A stretch of 36,008 bases of DNA from IMG/VR virus record IMGVR_UViG_3300030107_003528, positions 1-36,008 of that record. The stretch is one strand, 5' to 3'. A program made the translations under genes and the position numbers. The notes below the pieces were generated by a model. The model searched no databases and was not told where the DNA came from. It saw only the letters and a list, made by a program, of their open reading frames with translations. Position 1 is the first letter of the stretch, and each line of letters begins with the position of its first letter. This DNA is from a virus. Shown here piece by piece: positions 2-13,294 of the stretch.

Positions 2-3000
2 AATAACACTGCTAACGAGACAGTATACCCTGTTTTTGTTGATGGTGCTACAGGGACACAGGGGGCCGAAACAGACACTGGCCTTACCTACAATCCTTCT
101 ACTGGTATACTCACGTCTACAGGCTACACAGGCACTCTACAGACAGCATCACAGACTAATATTACGGCAGTTGGAACTATTTCAACAGGTGTCTGGCAAG
201 GTACTGCTATAGCCTCTGGCTATATAGCGGCTGACGCTATTACTGGTGCGAAGATTGCAGACGATGCGATTGACTCTGAACACTATACTGATGGTTCTAT
301 CGACACCGCACACATTGCGGATAATCAGGTAACCTTGGCTAAAATGGCTGGACTTGCCAGAGGTAAGATTATCTATGGTGATGCCAGCGGTGACCCAGCG
401 GCCCTAGCTGTAGGCAGTAGTGGAACATATCTTACTACAGACGGTACGGATATATCATGGGGCTCTATTTCATCAGCCGCCGTTACAGCATTAAATAATG
501 CTACAGAAAATGAACTTGTAACAGTAGGGGCTACAACAACTCAACTTGATGCAGAAGCCAATCTGACCTATGCAAGTGACGTATTAACAACAGCTTCCTC
601 ATCAGCCAGCTTACCCAGAATAGATATTACAAATACACATGCTGGGGCAACTGCTGGTGAAATAAGATTTAATAAAGATAGTGCGTCTGGTGATGATAGT
701 GACGTTATGGGTACTATATCATGGTATGGTACTGATGCAGGTGAGAATACTCACCAACAATTATCATACATGGATGCGATTATTACAGATTCTGCCCACG
801 GTTCTGAAGCGGCGTCTTTAAGATTCTATGTGGCAGAGAATGATGGTACAAATACTCTGGGCTTACAGCTTGCTGGACAGGCTGATGCTGATGGTGAGAT
901 TGATGTAACCATTGGTGCAGGAGCCGCATCTACTACAACCATAGCTGGTACGCTGACTATGGGAAGTACAGCGGCAATGACTAATGCAGGATTAGTTGCT
1001 GTTGCAAACCAGTCTAACATTACTGGTGTAGGTACTATATCGTCAGGTACATGGCAGGGAACTGCAATAGCATCTTCTTACATTGCGGCGGACGCCATCA
1101 CTGGCGCTAAAATAGCTGATGACGCTATTGATAGCGAACACTATACAGACGGCTCAATAGATACTGCACACCTAGCGGCAGATGCTGTTACCGGGGCTAA
1201 GATTGCGGATGATGCTATCGACTCGGAGCATTACACAGATGGCTCCATTGATACAGCACATATTGCTGATAACCAAGTTACTCTTGCGAAGATGGCAGGG
1301 CTTGCTAGAGGCAAGATTATATACGGTAACGCTAGTGGTGACCCTACTGCACTGACCGTAGGTAGTGCAGACCAAGTATTAACTTCTGATGGTACAGATG
1401 TCTCGTGGGAAGATGCAGGTGGTGGTGGAACAATCCAGCTTACCAACCAAGGAGCAATCCCTGCTGGAGCCCCAGTTTCTGTAGATAGTAACGGAAGGGC
1501 TACAGTAATTAGTGGTTTGGGGAATGACCTATTTAATCTAGGTGCAAAACATGATGATTCAGCAGGGACTACCGATAACCCTTCGGCGAATAATGAGGGG
1601 GGTACAGTGTACACAGGCTATAGCTTTAGCGTAGTCGATATGGGGTCTACAGGTATTGCACACCTTGTAACTGATAACGGAACCAACAGGCTTAGAGTAC
1701 ATATTGGCACATACTCCCAGACAGCAGGAACAACTGCTGGGACAAGGGAAATTCAGTGGGGGGTTCAAACAACCTTGGGAGTAACCAACTCTAATAGAAT
1801 CGCTGGCTGTTGGAATCCTGACGACTCACTACTATGTCTCATGTATAAAGATACTGGTAATAGCAAACTTTACCTAATACAATATCCTATTAGTAACAAT
1901 ACACTAGGTACAGCAAGTACAGCATTAGAAATCTATAGTGGAAATGTACAGGATGGTGTTTTTGAAATAGAGTACGATAAAAATGATAATAGATATATAG
2001 TATTGTTCGCACATTCTGGTGGAGGCACTGCTGATGACTTGATGTGTGGTGTCTACTATAATAACAGTGGTACTCCAGCACAGACTATTGCCCCATCACA
2101 GGTTTCGGGAGATGTGCATAGTCGGTACGCACAATTAAAATGGGCTAATGGGGCGTCAGGTAAAGATGATGTCGGGCTTATCGTATACCAAGACAATGAC
2201 GATAGCCAGTATATCAAAGCTGTTGGAGTAACACATAACAACTCAGATACTATTACCTATACAGGTACGCCAGTAGAAATATTTGGTGCAGATAAAGCAT
2301 ATAAATTGGGTGATATCCCACGAGGAACACCGGGTAATATATCATTTGACACTACTGCACCTCCAGCGGCTGGAGGTTTTGCAACAACTGATGATGTGTT
2401 CGTTGTAGGTGTCCCCGGAGCAGATGGGGATGGTGACATTTACCCATTTGTTGTGCCTGTAGCTGTTGACTCAAGTGATTGTTCAATAGTAGCTGGTACG
2501 GTAGAAACTCCATACACAGTGTTTCCTGACTATATGAAAATGTATCCGGGGTCTGCTGTTGAAGCAGACCAATCTCCAATGTCTGATGCAGAGGGAAATC
2601 ATATGGCTATATGCTATGACCCTGACCGAGATGTCCATGTAATAGTATGGCGTATCTTTCATTACTATGAGCAAGCAGACTGGGATGGGGGTATATTCCA
2701 GAATGGTTCGGCACTTGTATCTCAAACATTAACACTAAACGCATCCAACAACGCAACTATCGACAATACCTATAACACATCATTTCACCCCATACTGGGA
2801 GATAGGCAAAGCTCACATAATCAAGGTGTTAACAGAAGTGCCTCTATGGGAGTAGGTCTTTTGGTCTACTATGGGTTAGGGCTAAGTTACAGTACACACT
2901 ACGATACTATGTTTATGCTTGGGCATAGAAGAATTGCTACAGATGTAGATACAGAATATGAATACGATAGGCACTTCCTGTTTGCTTTTAATGGGCAGAC

Positions 3001-9668: not shown

Positions 9669-9830
9669 ATGGCAGAATACGATAGGTCACCACGAGGGGC
9701 CGCAAAAAAGGGGGCGGCATCCCGGCAAAGAAAGTATAAGGTTAGGAAAACCTTAAAGGCACGAACTCGGAAAGGGTCGAGGACACAGGCGTACCTAGAG
9801 AGGCTAGCAGGTATACACCTTAAAAAATAG
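9669..9830 (+). CDS. 53-residue basic protein of unknown function
   Basis: An AGGAG SD six bases before the ATG supports the start. The protein (MAEYDRSPRGAAKKGAASRQ...YLERLAGIHLKK) is Arg/Lys-rich with a helical C-terminal half, again compatible with nucleic-acid binding. It is the last gene of the rightward tail block. Its end overlaps the convergent redoxin gene by 11 bases, so there is no room for a terminator between them. Confidence 0.65.
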   Translation: MAEYDRSPRGAAKKGAASRQRKYKVRKTLKARTRKGSRTQAYLERLAGIHLKK

Positions 9831-10041
9831 CTTCTTCTAACTTCGCAGGGTTATATCCTACAACAGTAATATTATCAAAGAATGTTACTGGCGTACTTCT
9901 ATATCCCATGCTGGTGAGCGCCTCAAGACGCTCCATATCCGTGGACACATTATACTCCTCATAATCTAGCCCTTCATTTGAAAGCCACGCCTTCACCATG
10001 TGGCATGGCCCTCAACCATTAGATGTATATACTTCTATCAT
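9820..10041 (-). CDS. Glutaredoxin/NrdH-like redoxin with in-frame UGA at the active-site Cys (candidate selenoprotein)
   Basis: Read with the UGA at 10012-10014 translated, this gives 73 residues. MIEVYTSNG (beta strand 1) is followed by U10-G-P-C13, then H14-MVKAWLSNEGLDYEEYNV, GYRSTPVTFFD (cis-Pro TPV at 50-52) and VVGYNPAKLEEAIF. Length, the CGPC position, the TPV motif and the GY-P-KL end match the glutaredoxin/NrdH thioredoxin fold, which reduces disulfides, often for ribonucleotide reductase. UGA falls exactly on the nucleophilic Cys, where known selenoredoxins carry Sec. The ATG overlaps the upstream stop by one base (TAATG), so the gene is translationally coupled, and it ends at TAA. 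Genes elsewhere in the window end at TGA, so a global code change is unlikely. Alternatives are a Cys-to-stop pseudogene mutation or a sequencing error. Redoxin identity is strong; Sec decoding is inference. Confidence 0.75.
9984..10009 (-). promoter_or_regulatory. SECIS-like hairpin immediately after the in-frame UGA
   Basis: In the mRNA, bases 3-10 after UGA (GCCAUGCC) can pair with bases 21-28 (GGCGUGGC), giving 8 pairs with one U-G wobble. The 10-base loop (ACAUGGUGAA) contains GGU. Bacterial SECIS elements are hairpins just downstream of UGA with G/GU in the apical loop. The E. coli fdhF GGU lies about 19-21 bases after UGA; here it is at 15-17, a little closer. A competing smaller hairpin (CCAUG with CAUGG) is possible. 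Confidence 0.4.
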
Positions 10042-10325
10042 TATTCCTCGCTTGGGAATTGTACGTCGTGCATTGTGTCTAGCAGGGCTACCACAGCATC
10101 GGCTACATCCTCATACATTTCATCGCCTTCTGTTTCAGTAATGACTTGACCCTCGGCGAGAGTCGTCTTAAAATTATCGTTCTCCCCATTCACCACGGAT
10201 ATAACTAGTTGGGCAACACCGGGATGCTGGTGGAACATTCCACACGGCGTCCCGGCTATACCTCCTCGTACCTTTCCTAGATATACACCGCAGTTAGGGC
10301 AGTGGTTATCCTTCAGAATTTTCAT
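10041..10325 (-). CDS. Small zinc-finger-like protein
   Basis: 94 residues if started at the ATG at 10325 (MKILKDNHCPNCG), which overlaps the preceding gene by 20 bases; a longer frame from 10391 would overlap it by 86 bases and is less likely. CPNCG near residues 9-12 plus a later Cys and His (TPCGMFHQHPG) look like a zinc-binding site. The C-terminal half is acidic and helical. It is coupled to the redoxin gene by a TAATG overlap. Function not recognised. Confidence 0.65.
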   Translation of the reverse strand: MKILKDNHCPNCGVYLGKVRGGIAGTPCGMFHQHPGVAQLVISVVNGENDNFKTTLAEGQVITETEGDEMYEDVADAVVALLDTMHDVQFPSEE

Positions 10326-10638
10326 ATGCAGTCTTAGTAAAATACTTCCTTGGAATAAAGTACTGTACTCCGTAGCCCCAGTCGGCTTCAAAGTCAGCCC
10401 AAGTATCTATCTCTTCTAAGTCTATAGTATACAGTATATTCTCCTGTTTGTCCAGTACCTCTAGGTTACGTACACCTCGTACTGCTAAACTATCCCATAC
10501 ACTGGCATCCATTCCCCAAGCATCCCACTTCCTAAACAAGTGTCTGCTCTTCTTAACATACTTTCGTAGGGTGTCACCATTAACTGTGCCCCATGTCTGT
10601 CCGTCAACTGTTATTTTTTCTTCCTGTGATTCTATCAT
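10306..10638 (-). CDS. Hypothetical protein, aromatic-rich
   Basis: 110 residues from the ATG at 10638, five bases after an AGGAG; an upstream in-frame GTG (10644) overlaps that SD and is less likely. Rich in Trp/Tyr and acidic residues (WDAWGMDASVWDS, IDTWADFEADWGYGVQYF). No motif recognised. It sits between a tiny helical gene and a zinc-finger-like gene at the 3' end of the leftward operon. Confidence 0.65.
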   Translation of the reverse strand: MIESQEEKITVDGQTWGTVNGDTLRKYVKKSRHLFRKWDAWGMDASVWDSLAVRGVRNLEVLDKQENILYTIDLEEIDTWADFEADWGYGVQYFIPRKYFTKTAYENSEG

Positions 10639-10777
10639 CTTCACTCCTCAGTACTAATAAATGTTTCCAATGTTCTTCTGCTTCTGACCACTGATTATCA
10701 TGCCACGCCTGCCTAAATAGCTGACTGTGTCTAGCAATGGCCTTTCTTAGTTCTTGTAAGGCTTCATTCGTGCCCAT
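10604..10777 (-). CDS. 57-residue helical protein, overlapping the polymerase gene end
   Basis: Begins MGTNEALQELRKAIARHSQL and continues with an amphipathic, Trp/Glu-rich helix (WSEAEEHWKHLLVLRSEDDR). The ATG lies inside the last codons of the polymerase gene (31-base overlap) and the stop lies 35 bases inside the next gene. GGAGGT about ten bases upstream is a plausible SD. The coherent helical pattern and snug placement in an otherwise uncovered gap support a real gene. Function unknown. Confidence 0.6.
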   Translation of the reverse strand: MGTNEALQELRKAIARHSQLFRQAWHDNQWSEAEEHWKHLLVLRSEDDRITGRKNNS

Positions 10778-13095
10778 GTCTTTCCGACCTCCGGTTCAAT
10801 AGGGAATGAGATTGGCATAACATCGTCTAACATTGTCTGTGTCAATTGTATTACGGTGTCTAGCTGGTCTTCCCTAACTTCTAATATAACTTCATCATGC
10901 ACTTGTAGTAGTAGGTGTGCGTCTAAACCTAACTCGTGTATGTCATCCCAGAGCTTGCGCATGCCAATCTTTATACAGCTTGCGGCTGGCCCTTGGATGT
11001 GGAAGTTGATGGCCTCACGTACTGCGGCCTCTCGCTGGTGTTGAGCGGCTGAGTAAATGCCGGGGAACCATCGTATCCTACCAAAGTAATCACGAGCAAA
11101 ACCCTTCTCTCTTATCTCAAAGTACACGTTATTCTTAAAGTGTGTGAGACCTTCGTAGCGAGTGGATATTTTCTCATATCCACTCAGGCTCTGCTCCATT
11201 GACAGGCGAGGGTCAATCTCTTTTAGCTTGCCTGCCCCTGCACCATACACTAAGGCGAGGAAGAATGTCTTGGCGGTGTGCCACTCCTGTTCGTCTACTC
11301 CCTTGACAATTTCTCTGCCGTATATGTCTTCGCCTATTAGTGCATAGGGTGTTAAACCTTTATCAAAGTCAGCCATCAGCGTGGGCTCAGGCGCTACAAG
11401 ACTTGCAATCCGTGGCTCCTGTTGCCCTACGTCAGCGGCTACCAGTACATATCCCGGTCTAGCCACCAAACACTGCCGTACCATCCTACCATACTCTTCG
11501 TATTCTGCACCTTTTCCTCGTCCGTGATGAGGGATTTGTTGCAGATTTGGTGTGGAACAGGATAAGCGCCCTGTGGCTGGAGCAGACCCAGACGTATCAG
11601 AAGACTCTTCATAGTAACCCCCTTGGTTAAAATTAGGGTGTAGCGCACCGTCCCACCCACTTAGTTCTTTAAATTTCTTAGGAAACGCACCCAGTTTTCG
11701 GAACATCTTGAAGTCCAGTATGGCGTCGATTGTATCTTTGTGCCAGTCTCCTACACTCCTTAGTGTGTTCTCGTCAGTGCATAGCAACCCTTTACCATCA
11801 GTGCGTTTAGTAATGGGTGCATCATTCTCCTCAAGCCAGCGAGCAAGCTGGTCACCGCTACCAATATTTACCTCGATAGGTATCTCGTAGTGTGCCCTAC
11901 ACTCAGCGTCGTCTTGCTTTTCTTTAAAATATCTTATGGCCTCATCCACTGCCTCCGGGCTGACTTGTACTCCCCTTCTCTCCATGTCCGACAACACAGG
12001 TACGAGCGGCATCTCTATATTATTATACACGTCTTCCAGTACGTACTCTCTTAACCTCGTGATTAACGCATCCCACAACTGTAACGTGTTATCTGCATCT
12101 GCCGCCGCATACGGTAGTATCTCTTCCGCAGTCAACTCACTCATATCCTTACCGCCAGTCACCTCGGAGTAGGTGATAGGCTTAATGCCTAGTTCTTGTA
12201 CGGCAAGGTCTTTAAGATGTGTTGACGGCAGTCCGAGAAGGTATGCCGCAATCTTTGTGTCTTGGAAATTGGTGAGAGTGATGTCATTATTCTTCAGATG
12301 AGTATACTCAAACTTAGAGTTGTGACATATCACTTCTTGGTTGGGGTCTTCCAGTATAGTTTTCATCTTGAATGGCTTCTCTGGTATGTACGAGCCACTA
12401 CCCGGTATGTCCGACCAACTATACCCCACGATTTCTGCCTCTTGTACAGCAAACCGCCCCCCTCTAGTGGGACTCGTAGTCTCTAGGTCGAAGCCTAAAG
12501 GCCCGACATGAGAGATGTTGCCGTATAGAGAATAATTAGTGCGTGGAGTAACTTGTTTATTGTGGAGTTTCGTCCTCAGTGCGGCCCAATCCTCCAGTTG
12601 TATAGGCCATAGGTTAGGGTTATGCAAGGCGGCGGCTGGATGGTACATCGGAACCAGTAGAAACCCCTCATGCTCAAACGGCACACCATGCTCACGAGTG
12701 AGGGACAGGTCTGATTTGAAATATTTTCCAGCTACCGAGCCAAGCGTCACCACAATCATTGGCCTTACTTGATTCAATTCGTCCTCCAACCAATGCGCAC
12801 AAGCGTTTATCTCACGCTTATACGGATTACGGTTGCGAGGGGGACGGTGTTTTATTAAATTAGTTATGTAGATATCTTCCCGGCATAGCTGTGCTTGTTC
12901 TAGTAGTATCTCTAACTTAGCACCACTTGCCCCTACAAAGGGCTCGCCGAGTTCATCCTCTAGAGCGCCGGGAGCCTCACCTACCAGCATTATATGCGCA
13001 GGTTTTGGCCCGACACCCTCCACTAAATTAGCACCCTCGTATAGTGGGCATTCTTTACAGTTGCTTAAACCAACGAGGGGTGTCAGTGTGTTCAA
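10747..13095 (-). CDS. Family-4 uracil-DNA glycosylase fused to family-A DNA polymerase with 3'-5' exonuclease
   Basis: 782 residues from the TTG at 13095, six bases after AAGGAG; a TTG at 13110 is closer to no SD. Domain 1 (about 1-175) is a family-4 UDG/SPO1-polymerase-related domain: CKEC near residues 13-16, GEAPGALEDELGEPFVG, Cys 99 and HPAAAL near 152. The third Fe-S Cys of this family (KCRPP) is His here (KHRPP, about residue 83). Domain 2 (about 195-375) is a DnaQ-like exonuclease with FDLET, HNSKFEY and YAAADAD. Domain 3 is a Pol I palm: motif A VAADVGQQEPRIAS, O-helix WHTAKTFFLALVYGAG, motif C VHDEV. The residue matching E. coli Phe762 is Leu. This is the replicative polymerase of the phage; the fused UDG resembles the phage SPO1 arrangement. 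Confidence 0.93.
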   Translation of the reverse strand: MNTLTPLVGLSNCKECPLYEGANLVEGVGPKPAHIMLVGEAPGALEDELGEPFVGASGAKLEILLEQAQLCREDIYITNLIKHRPPRNRNPYKREINACAHWLEDELNQVRPMIVVTLGSVAGKYFKSDLSLTREHGVPFEHEGFLLVPMYHPAAALHNPNLWPIQLEDWAALRTKLHNKQVTPRTNYSLYGNISHVGPLGFDLETTSPTRGGRFAVQEAEIVGYSWSDIPGSGSYIPEKPFKMKTILEDPNQEVICHNSKFEYTHLKNNDITLTNFQDTKIAAYLLGLPSTHLKDLAVQELGIKPITYSEVTGGKDMSELTAEEILPYAAADADNTLQLWDALITRLREYVLEDVYNNIEMPLVPVLSDMERRGVQVSPEAVDEAIRYFKEKQDDAECRAHYEIPIEVNIGSGDQLARWLEENDAPITKRTDGKGLLCTDENTLRSVGDWHKDTIDAILDFKMFRKLGAFPKKFKELSGWDGALHPNFNQGGYYEESSDTSGSAPATGRLSCSTPNLQQIPHHGRGKGAEYEEYGRMVRQCLVARPGYVLVAADVGQQEPRIASLVAPEPTLMADFDKGLTPYALIGEDIYGREIVKGVDEQEWHTAKTFFLALVYGAGAGKLKEIDPRLSMEQSLSGYEKISTRYEGLTHFKNNVYFEIREKGFARDYFGRIRWFPGIYSAAQHQREAAVREAINFHIQGPAASCIKIGMRKLWDDIHELGLDAHLLLQVHDEVILEVREDQLDTVIQLTQTMLDDVMPISFPIEPEVGKTWARMKPYKN

Positions 13096-13294
13096 ATTTT
13101 TCTCCTTCAACAGTTTCTATTATCATGTTGTCAATGGACGCAGAGGGCCAAACAAAACTGGTGTGCCTGTCGGCATCCTCTGGGTTGTGCTGTACTATGC
13201 TGAGAAATCCGGGGAGACCTATCGGGTCTAGGAGTTCAACATCCTCCAGCTTGATAAGTTCCCCATCTCCCTTCAGCTTTAAGACGACAATCAA
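13055..13294 (-). CDS. Hypothetical 79-residue protein
   Basis: The start is a TTG inside the TGA stop of the SSB-like gene (TTGA overlap), suggesting re-initiation. Its 3' end overlaps the polymerase start by about 40 bases. The sequence (MIVVLKLKGDGELIKLEDVELLD...) is beta-rich and resembles a small phage replication accessory protein, but I do not recognise a family. No strong SD is seen. Confidence 0.55.
   Translation of the reverse strand: MIVVLKLKGDGELIKLEDVELLDPIGLPGFLSIVQHNPEDADRHTSFVWPSASIDNMIIETVEGEKFEHTDTPRWFKQL

Follow-up and report, generated by a model that had tools for sequence, protein, structure and literature searches.

A marine phage glutaredoxin-like gene with UGA at its catalytic cysteine codon very probably encodes a viral selenoprotein

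Glutaredoxins that contain selenocysteine (Sec) are known in a few bacteria, for example Geobacter and Clostridium oremlandii (PMC13188914, PMC1794560). These bacterial selenoproteins (PF00462, UxxC) carry Sec at the first position of UxxC and have a bacterial SECIS element directly downstream. The redoxin gene described here shares their small fold, the proposed Sec position and the downstream element, and the initial annotation was right that known Sec redoxins have Sec at this site. The known members are cellular, whereas genes of the present type lie on phage genomes, specify UGPC and are linked in most phages to a class II ribonucleotide reductase (RNR). NrdH-like glutaredoxins of Enterococcus, Mycobacterium and Arthrobacter phages have the same fold and size and 40–47% identity; by their annotation as NrdH-like or glutaredoxin, these cultured-phage proteins pass as ordinary redoxins, and no UGA form was noted among the best matches. 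Members of the glutaredoxin-like Uxx-star family (NF041212) likewise have either Sec or Cys at this position, but our redoxin has UGPC rather than the UXX-star motif and scores 40.2 bits against this family, under the curated cut-off of 66. Another phage-borne element of the Sec pathway is the tRNA-Sec gene reported in Basilisk-like Bacillus phages (PMC6145125), which have no reported selenoprotein, whereas the phage studied here has a candidate selenoprotein gene and no tRNA-Sec. We found no report of a phage-encoded selenoprotein in the openly licensed literature, a scope that leaves out most subscription papers and preprints, and priority is unproven. A 2026 review on the selenoproteome of prokaryotes contains no mention of phages or viruses (PMC13188914).

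The window, by which we mean the whole stretch of 36,008 nucleotides that was analysed, is an IMG/VR virus record with terminase and tail-fibre matches. Megablast of its first 25 kb against cultured phages gave no match. At 10747–13110 (minus strand) it also encodes a fusion protein that joins a uracil-DNA glycosylase domain to a family A DNA polymerase with 3'–5' exonuclease. The features of the redoxin locus are as follows.

9820–10041, minus strand: redoxin gene, glutaredoxin/NrdH-like, 73 residues (translation through one UGA; PF00462 and phrog_22 matches; homologues in phages and SAR202)
10012–10014, minus strand: in-frame UGA at codon 10, CxxC residue 1, proposed to specify selenocysteine (TGA in all close relatives; TGA, TGC or TGT only across the family)
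9978–9996, minus strand: SECIS-like hairpin, nt 19–37 from the U of UGA (fold, bSECIS geometry, covariation; not formed in this register by any of the 15 Cys forms)
10046–10049, minus strand: GAGG, located 4 nt ahead of the redoxin ATG as its ribosome-binding site (from sequence)
10041–10391, minus strand: upstream gene, 116 aa, unknown function, 1-base overlap with the redoxin start (from sequence; present also in redoxin-less sister phages)

The redoxin reading frame runs from an ATG at 10041–10039, whose first base is shared with the TAA that ends the upstream gene, to a TAA at 9822–9820, and contains exactly one in-frame TGA. Translated through this codon, it gives the 73-residue protein MIEVYTSNGUGPCHMVKAWLSNEGLDYEEYNVSTDMERLEALTSMGYRSTPVTFFDNITVVGYNPAKLEEAIF, in which codon 10 is the first Cys of CGPC and the active site becomes U-G-P-C. 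Standard ORF calling at this locus yields merely a 59-residue piece from the ATG at 9999. The full protein matches Pfam Glutaredoxin (PF00462) with E=3.4e-14 and 53.2 bits, above the gathering cut-off of 22.9, and phrog_22 with E=7.5e-18; translation and these two matches confirm the initial description of a complete glutaredoxin/NrdH-like protein with UGA at the first Cys of CxxC. The nearest NCBIfam families are YruB (TIGR02196, 67.3 bits, cut-off 88.55) and NrdH (TIGR02194, 62.7 bits, curated cut-off 85.75), both below their cut-offs, and among solved structures a glutaredoxin (7c10) and NrdH proteins come closest. On the strength of the family match, we have no doubt that the predicted fold is that of a glutaredoxin.

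Close relatives of the redoxin occur on five other IMG/VR contigs (83–94% amino-acid identity). The check for TGT or TGC at 10012–10014 in such relatives, suggested at the outset, returned TGA in five out of five. A DNA pattern scan identified two further records (L010 and L011) that are 54–58% identical to the window redoxin and keep the TGA, and a scan with looser settings turned up roughly a dozen phage redoxins of greater divergence that also have TGA. Both pattern scans required TGA and thus show spread rather than an unbiased ratio of TGA to Cys, whereas the protein searches carried no such requirement. Retention of the TGA in the five contigs and in L010 and L011 is far beyond chance. 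Besides the close relatives, three further groups of divergent phage redoxins have the TGA. Omega values of 0.17–0.20 inside the window clade and 0.05 for L010/L011 indicate purifying selection, and the TGA is unchanged between the window and L011 at a dS of about 3.3, near saturation. Together with the alignment of the relatives, this bears out the claim that the protein is conserved on either side of the UGA, including the N-terminal part before it. In the alignment of all forms together, the only codons at position 10 are TGA, TGC and TGT, as the proposed look at the homologue column had anticipated; distinct downstream sequences comprise 74 UGA forms and 15 Cys forms (TGC/TGT). By the test applied to bacterial selenoproteins, the in-frame UGA thus shows conservation and stands opposite Cys in homologous sequences, and such Cys/Sec pairing at one column is a standard criterion in selenoprotein finding (PMC13188914).

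Scanning cellular genomes (one per species, 84,980 species), with two exact peptide patterns as seeds that may miss relatives elsewhere, identified eight relatives that are 57–62% identical and have the same TGA. All are SAR202/Dehalococcoidia records, and the gene neighbourhood of one of these homologues (L049) is bacterial. The 197 genomes of the SAR202 order contain dozens of short redoxins with one TGA and others without. More distant redoxin domains with an in-frame TGA (L144, L145, L147–L149 and L152), most of them in frames of 250–350 aa, were also seen in this order and look like further selenoproteins.

About 19–23 nt after the UGA, the UGA forms have a hairpin, whose conserved stem pairs nt 19–25 with nt 31–37, counted from the U of UGA. 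Most SAR202 forms read GUGAAAG-NGUNN-CUUUCAC and the window clade UGAARGC-GUG-GCUUUCA (nt 20–36); the window itself has UGAAGGC-GUG-GCUUUCA at 9995–9979. With 7 bp, the loop GUG and a spacing of 23 nt (22–23 nt across forms), this hairpin falls within the published geometry of bSECIS elements, which have a stem of 4–16 bp and a loop of 3–9 nt whose first two positions include a G, and which lie 16–37 nt from the UGA (PMC13188914). The published energy limit is at most −7.5 kcal/mol (PMC13188914); the window hairpin alone reaches −6.4 kcal/mol, short of this value, and the SAR202 forms about −8, and the published figure may cover a longer stretch. Among 51 distinct sequences, 96.9% of cells are paired, with both-side changes at three pairs. 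This covariation exceeds that of all 500 shuffles, which leave sequence kinship in place, and slid versions of the hairpin pair in 29–58%. One change from U-A to C-G is found both in phages L028 and L039 and in a distant bacterial group (L147–L149). With a second viral group (described below) set aside, 58 of 63 UGA forms have all six core pairs, against none of the 15 Cys forms; these counts are not independent, as the sequences are related and the Cys forms on average more divergent. Some Cys forms have other hairpins, not in the SECIS register. Of 20,000 synonymous recodings, 0.6% produced a model hairpin that matched the window's in strength. Rfam gave no relevant match around the gene. 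The second viral group (L025, L026, L029, L032–L034, L036, L037, L042, L044 and L045) has a different hairpin (AUGACCA / UGGUUAW) approximately 3 nt nearer the UGA, and its host may differ from that of the window clade. The window RNA favours an alternative 13-bp stem that pairs the UGA; we rejected this stem as the element because, although more stable in the window, it is unconserved.

The proposed link to ribonucleotide reduction holds in other redoxin-bearing phages: an RNR large subunit is encoded in 18 of 19 redoxin-bearing viral records outside the window clade, mostly one to three genes upstream, and the three RNRs tested were all class II (TIGR02504, over cut-off). In the 36-kb window and in the sister records (the longest 43.7 kb), which may be fragments, we found no RNR. 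Because of the RNR neighbourhood in the relatives, electron supply to RNR is our best guess for the function, supported for the relatives and extrapolated to the window. The more reactive Sec would probably speed electron delivery to RNR, and its partner would, in most relatives, be the class II enzyme that the phage itself encodes; for the window phage, judging from the neighbourhoods in these relatives, it would presumably be the host enzyme. A selenoprotein with another main partner, such as a peroxiredoxin, a methionine sulfoxide reductase or some other disulfide target, is a minority possibility that deserves weight. The window clade records are without RNR, and a Sec-glutaredoxin study, as cited in PMC13188914, concerns a methionine sulfoxide reductase, whereas nearly all other phage records have a class II RNR gene near the redoxin and NrdH is among the nearest families. 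In L011, the UGA redoxin is followed directly, on its downstream side, by tandem genes for two similar membrane-anchored proteins (483–986 and 1003–1869, minus strand).

The eight SAR202 genomes with the closest redoxins, all of which encode an RNR large subunit, were searched for Sec machinery. Both selB and selA score over the curated cut-off in seven of the eight, tRNA-Sec over cut-off in six and selD is present in all eight. The remaining genome, with neither selA nor selB above this threshold, is the smallest at 1.4 Mb and, by its title, apparently a single-cell genome. The selD gene of all eight (L091, L092 and others) itself carries an in-frame TGA. Across the SAR202 order, selB is over cut-off in 176 of 197 genomes; since nearly all genomes of the order have it, co-occurrence of selB with UGA redoxins was dropped as evidence. 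None of the phage records tested has a tRNA-Sec over cut-off. Of the initial expectation of a host with selA, selB, selC and selD, the genes are thus borne out in the candidate group (selA, selB, selD and tRNA-Sec), and the assignment of the host itself is indirect.

The window terminase has its best identity, 36–37%, in SAR202-order genomes, versus 24% in cultured phages. No other window gene matched the terminase-bearing SAR202-order contigs, and a polymerase search in the order returned ordinary cellular polymerases only and was uninformative on the host. Based on the nearest cellular redoxins, the shared hairpin and the likeness of the terminase, SAR202 is the likely host of the window phage. 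That the protein is a selenoprotein but the host a different Sec-decoding bacterium is rather unlikely: the closest cellular redoxins are all SAR202/Dehalococcoidia, SAR202 redoxins and the window share the same hairpin, and the terminase is nearer to the SAR202 order than to any cultured phage, although the genome scan reached only relatives sharing one of its two peptide patterns and, apart from the redoxin, the terminase is the sole link of the window to this order. Two contigs of the SAR202 order (L163, G166 contig 34; L164, G180 contig 362) carry a Cys-type (TGC) redoxin with a phage-like terminase no more than about 7 kb away and are possible prophages with a Cys-form redoxin.

The conserved UGA, the Sec/Cys exchange, the covarying hairpin, purifying selection on both sides of the codon and the Sec genes of the candidate host group together support the viral selenoprotein proposed in the initial annotation. 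The SECIS-like hairpin, SAR202 as candidate host and the spread through unrelated phages go beyond that annotation. We conclude that the redoxin is very probably a phage-borne selenoprotein whose UGA is decoded as selenocysteine, with Sec insertion and the host both inferred. During infection, the host SelB–tRNA-Sec complex would bind the hairpin just downstream of the UGA, and host machinery would decode the codon as selenocysteine to yield an NrdH/glutaredoxin-like protein with a U-G-P-C site. That a suppressor tRNA or leaky read-through inserts Cys or Trp at the UGA, with no selenium involved, is highly improbable. Cys can chemically replace the residue, as in the 15 Cys forms, but TGG never occurs at codon 10, a search of the window and close relatives found no tRNA genes, the hairpin goes with UGA rather than with Cys codons, and the candidate host group has the full Sec machinery. 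Moreover, TGA ends seven of the 30 window genes that have a stop. Because TGA is an ordinary stop in these genes, we rejected general reassignment of UGA in the window, in agreement with the earlier reading of TGA as a true stop elsewhere. A scan of the window for further in-frame TGAs was uninterpretable, as near-identical relatives make antisense frames align too. The idea that the UGA is a true stop, that the gene is dead or that the TGA is a sequencing error, the last two of which had been raised initially and are rejected here, has next to no probability: a start codon does follow the UGA, and annotation tools would call the 59-residue ORF, yet that piece is without the first strand and the catalytic site while the part before the UGA is conserved, the gene is under purifying selection (omega 0.05–0.20), and TGA is found in contigs from many separate assemblies and in bacterial genomes.

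In the colinear sister phages L016, L017 and L024 the alignment jumps from window position ~9650 to ~10045, with 20–33 nt between, and L018 has about 330 nt of other sequence in this place; we found no redoxin in L016–L024. The redoxin is an accessory insert in the phage lineage of the window clade, missing from its colinear sisters. A small ORF beside it (9669–9830, plus strand) is missing jointly with the redoxin from L016, L017 and L024 and is absent from L003–L006, in which the redoxin is present, indicating a variable spot. In a redoxin tree of 83 sequences and 71 columns, with many forks unresolved, the window clade forms its own well-supported group, and viral Sec forms require three label changes, at least two of them forced by well-supported branches. 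More than one transfer of the Sec redoxin between cells and phages is therefore likely, with the direction inferred. The gene was probably acquired from Sec-decoding SAR202/Dehalococcoidia bacteria, and, going by the tree, one or more additional transfers probably brought it to other phages.

On balance we lean towards a widespread family of phage selenoproteins, in which several unrelated marine phage groups repeatedly acquired a Sec redoxin, SECIS element included, from Sec-decoding hosts and linked it to the class II RNR that they themselves encode. If this is true, phage DNA synthesis depends on the selenium supply of the host. Such genes escape standard annotation, which ends the ORF at the UGA. 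Should decoding be confirmed, phages whose hosts are probably SAR202 ocean bacteria make use of the selenocysteine machinery of these hosts, the effect of Sec on the speed of phage nucleotide reduction becomes testable, and selenium joins the nutrients able to limit infection.
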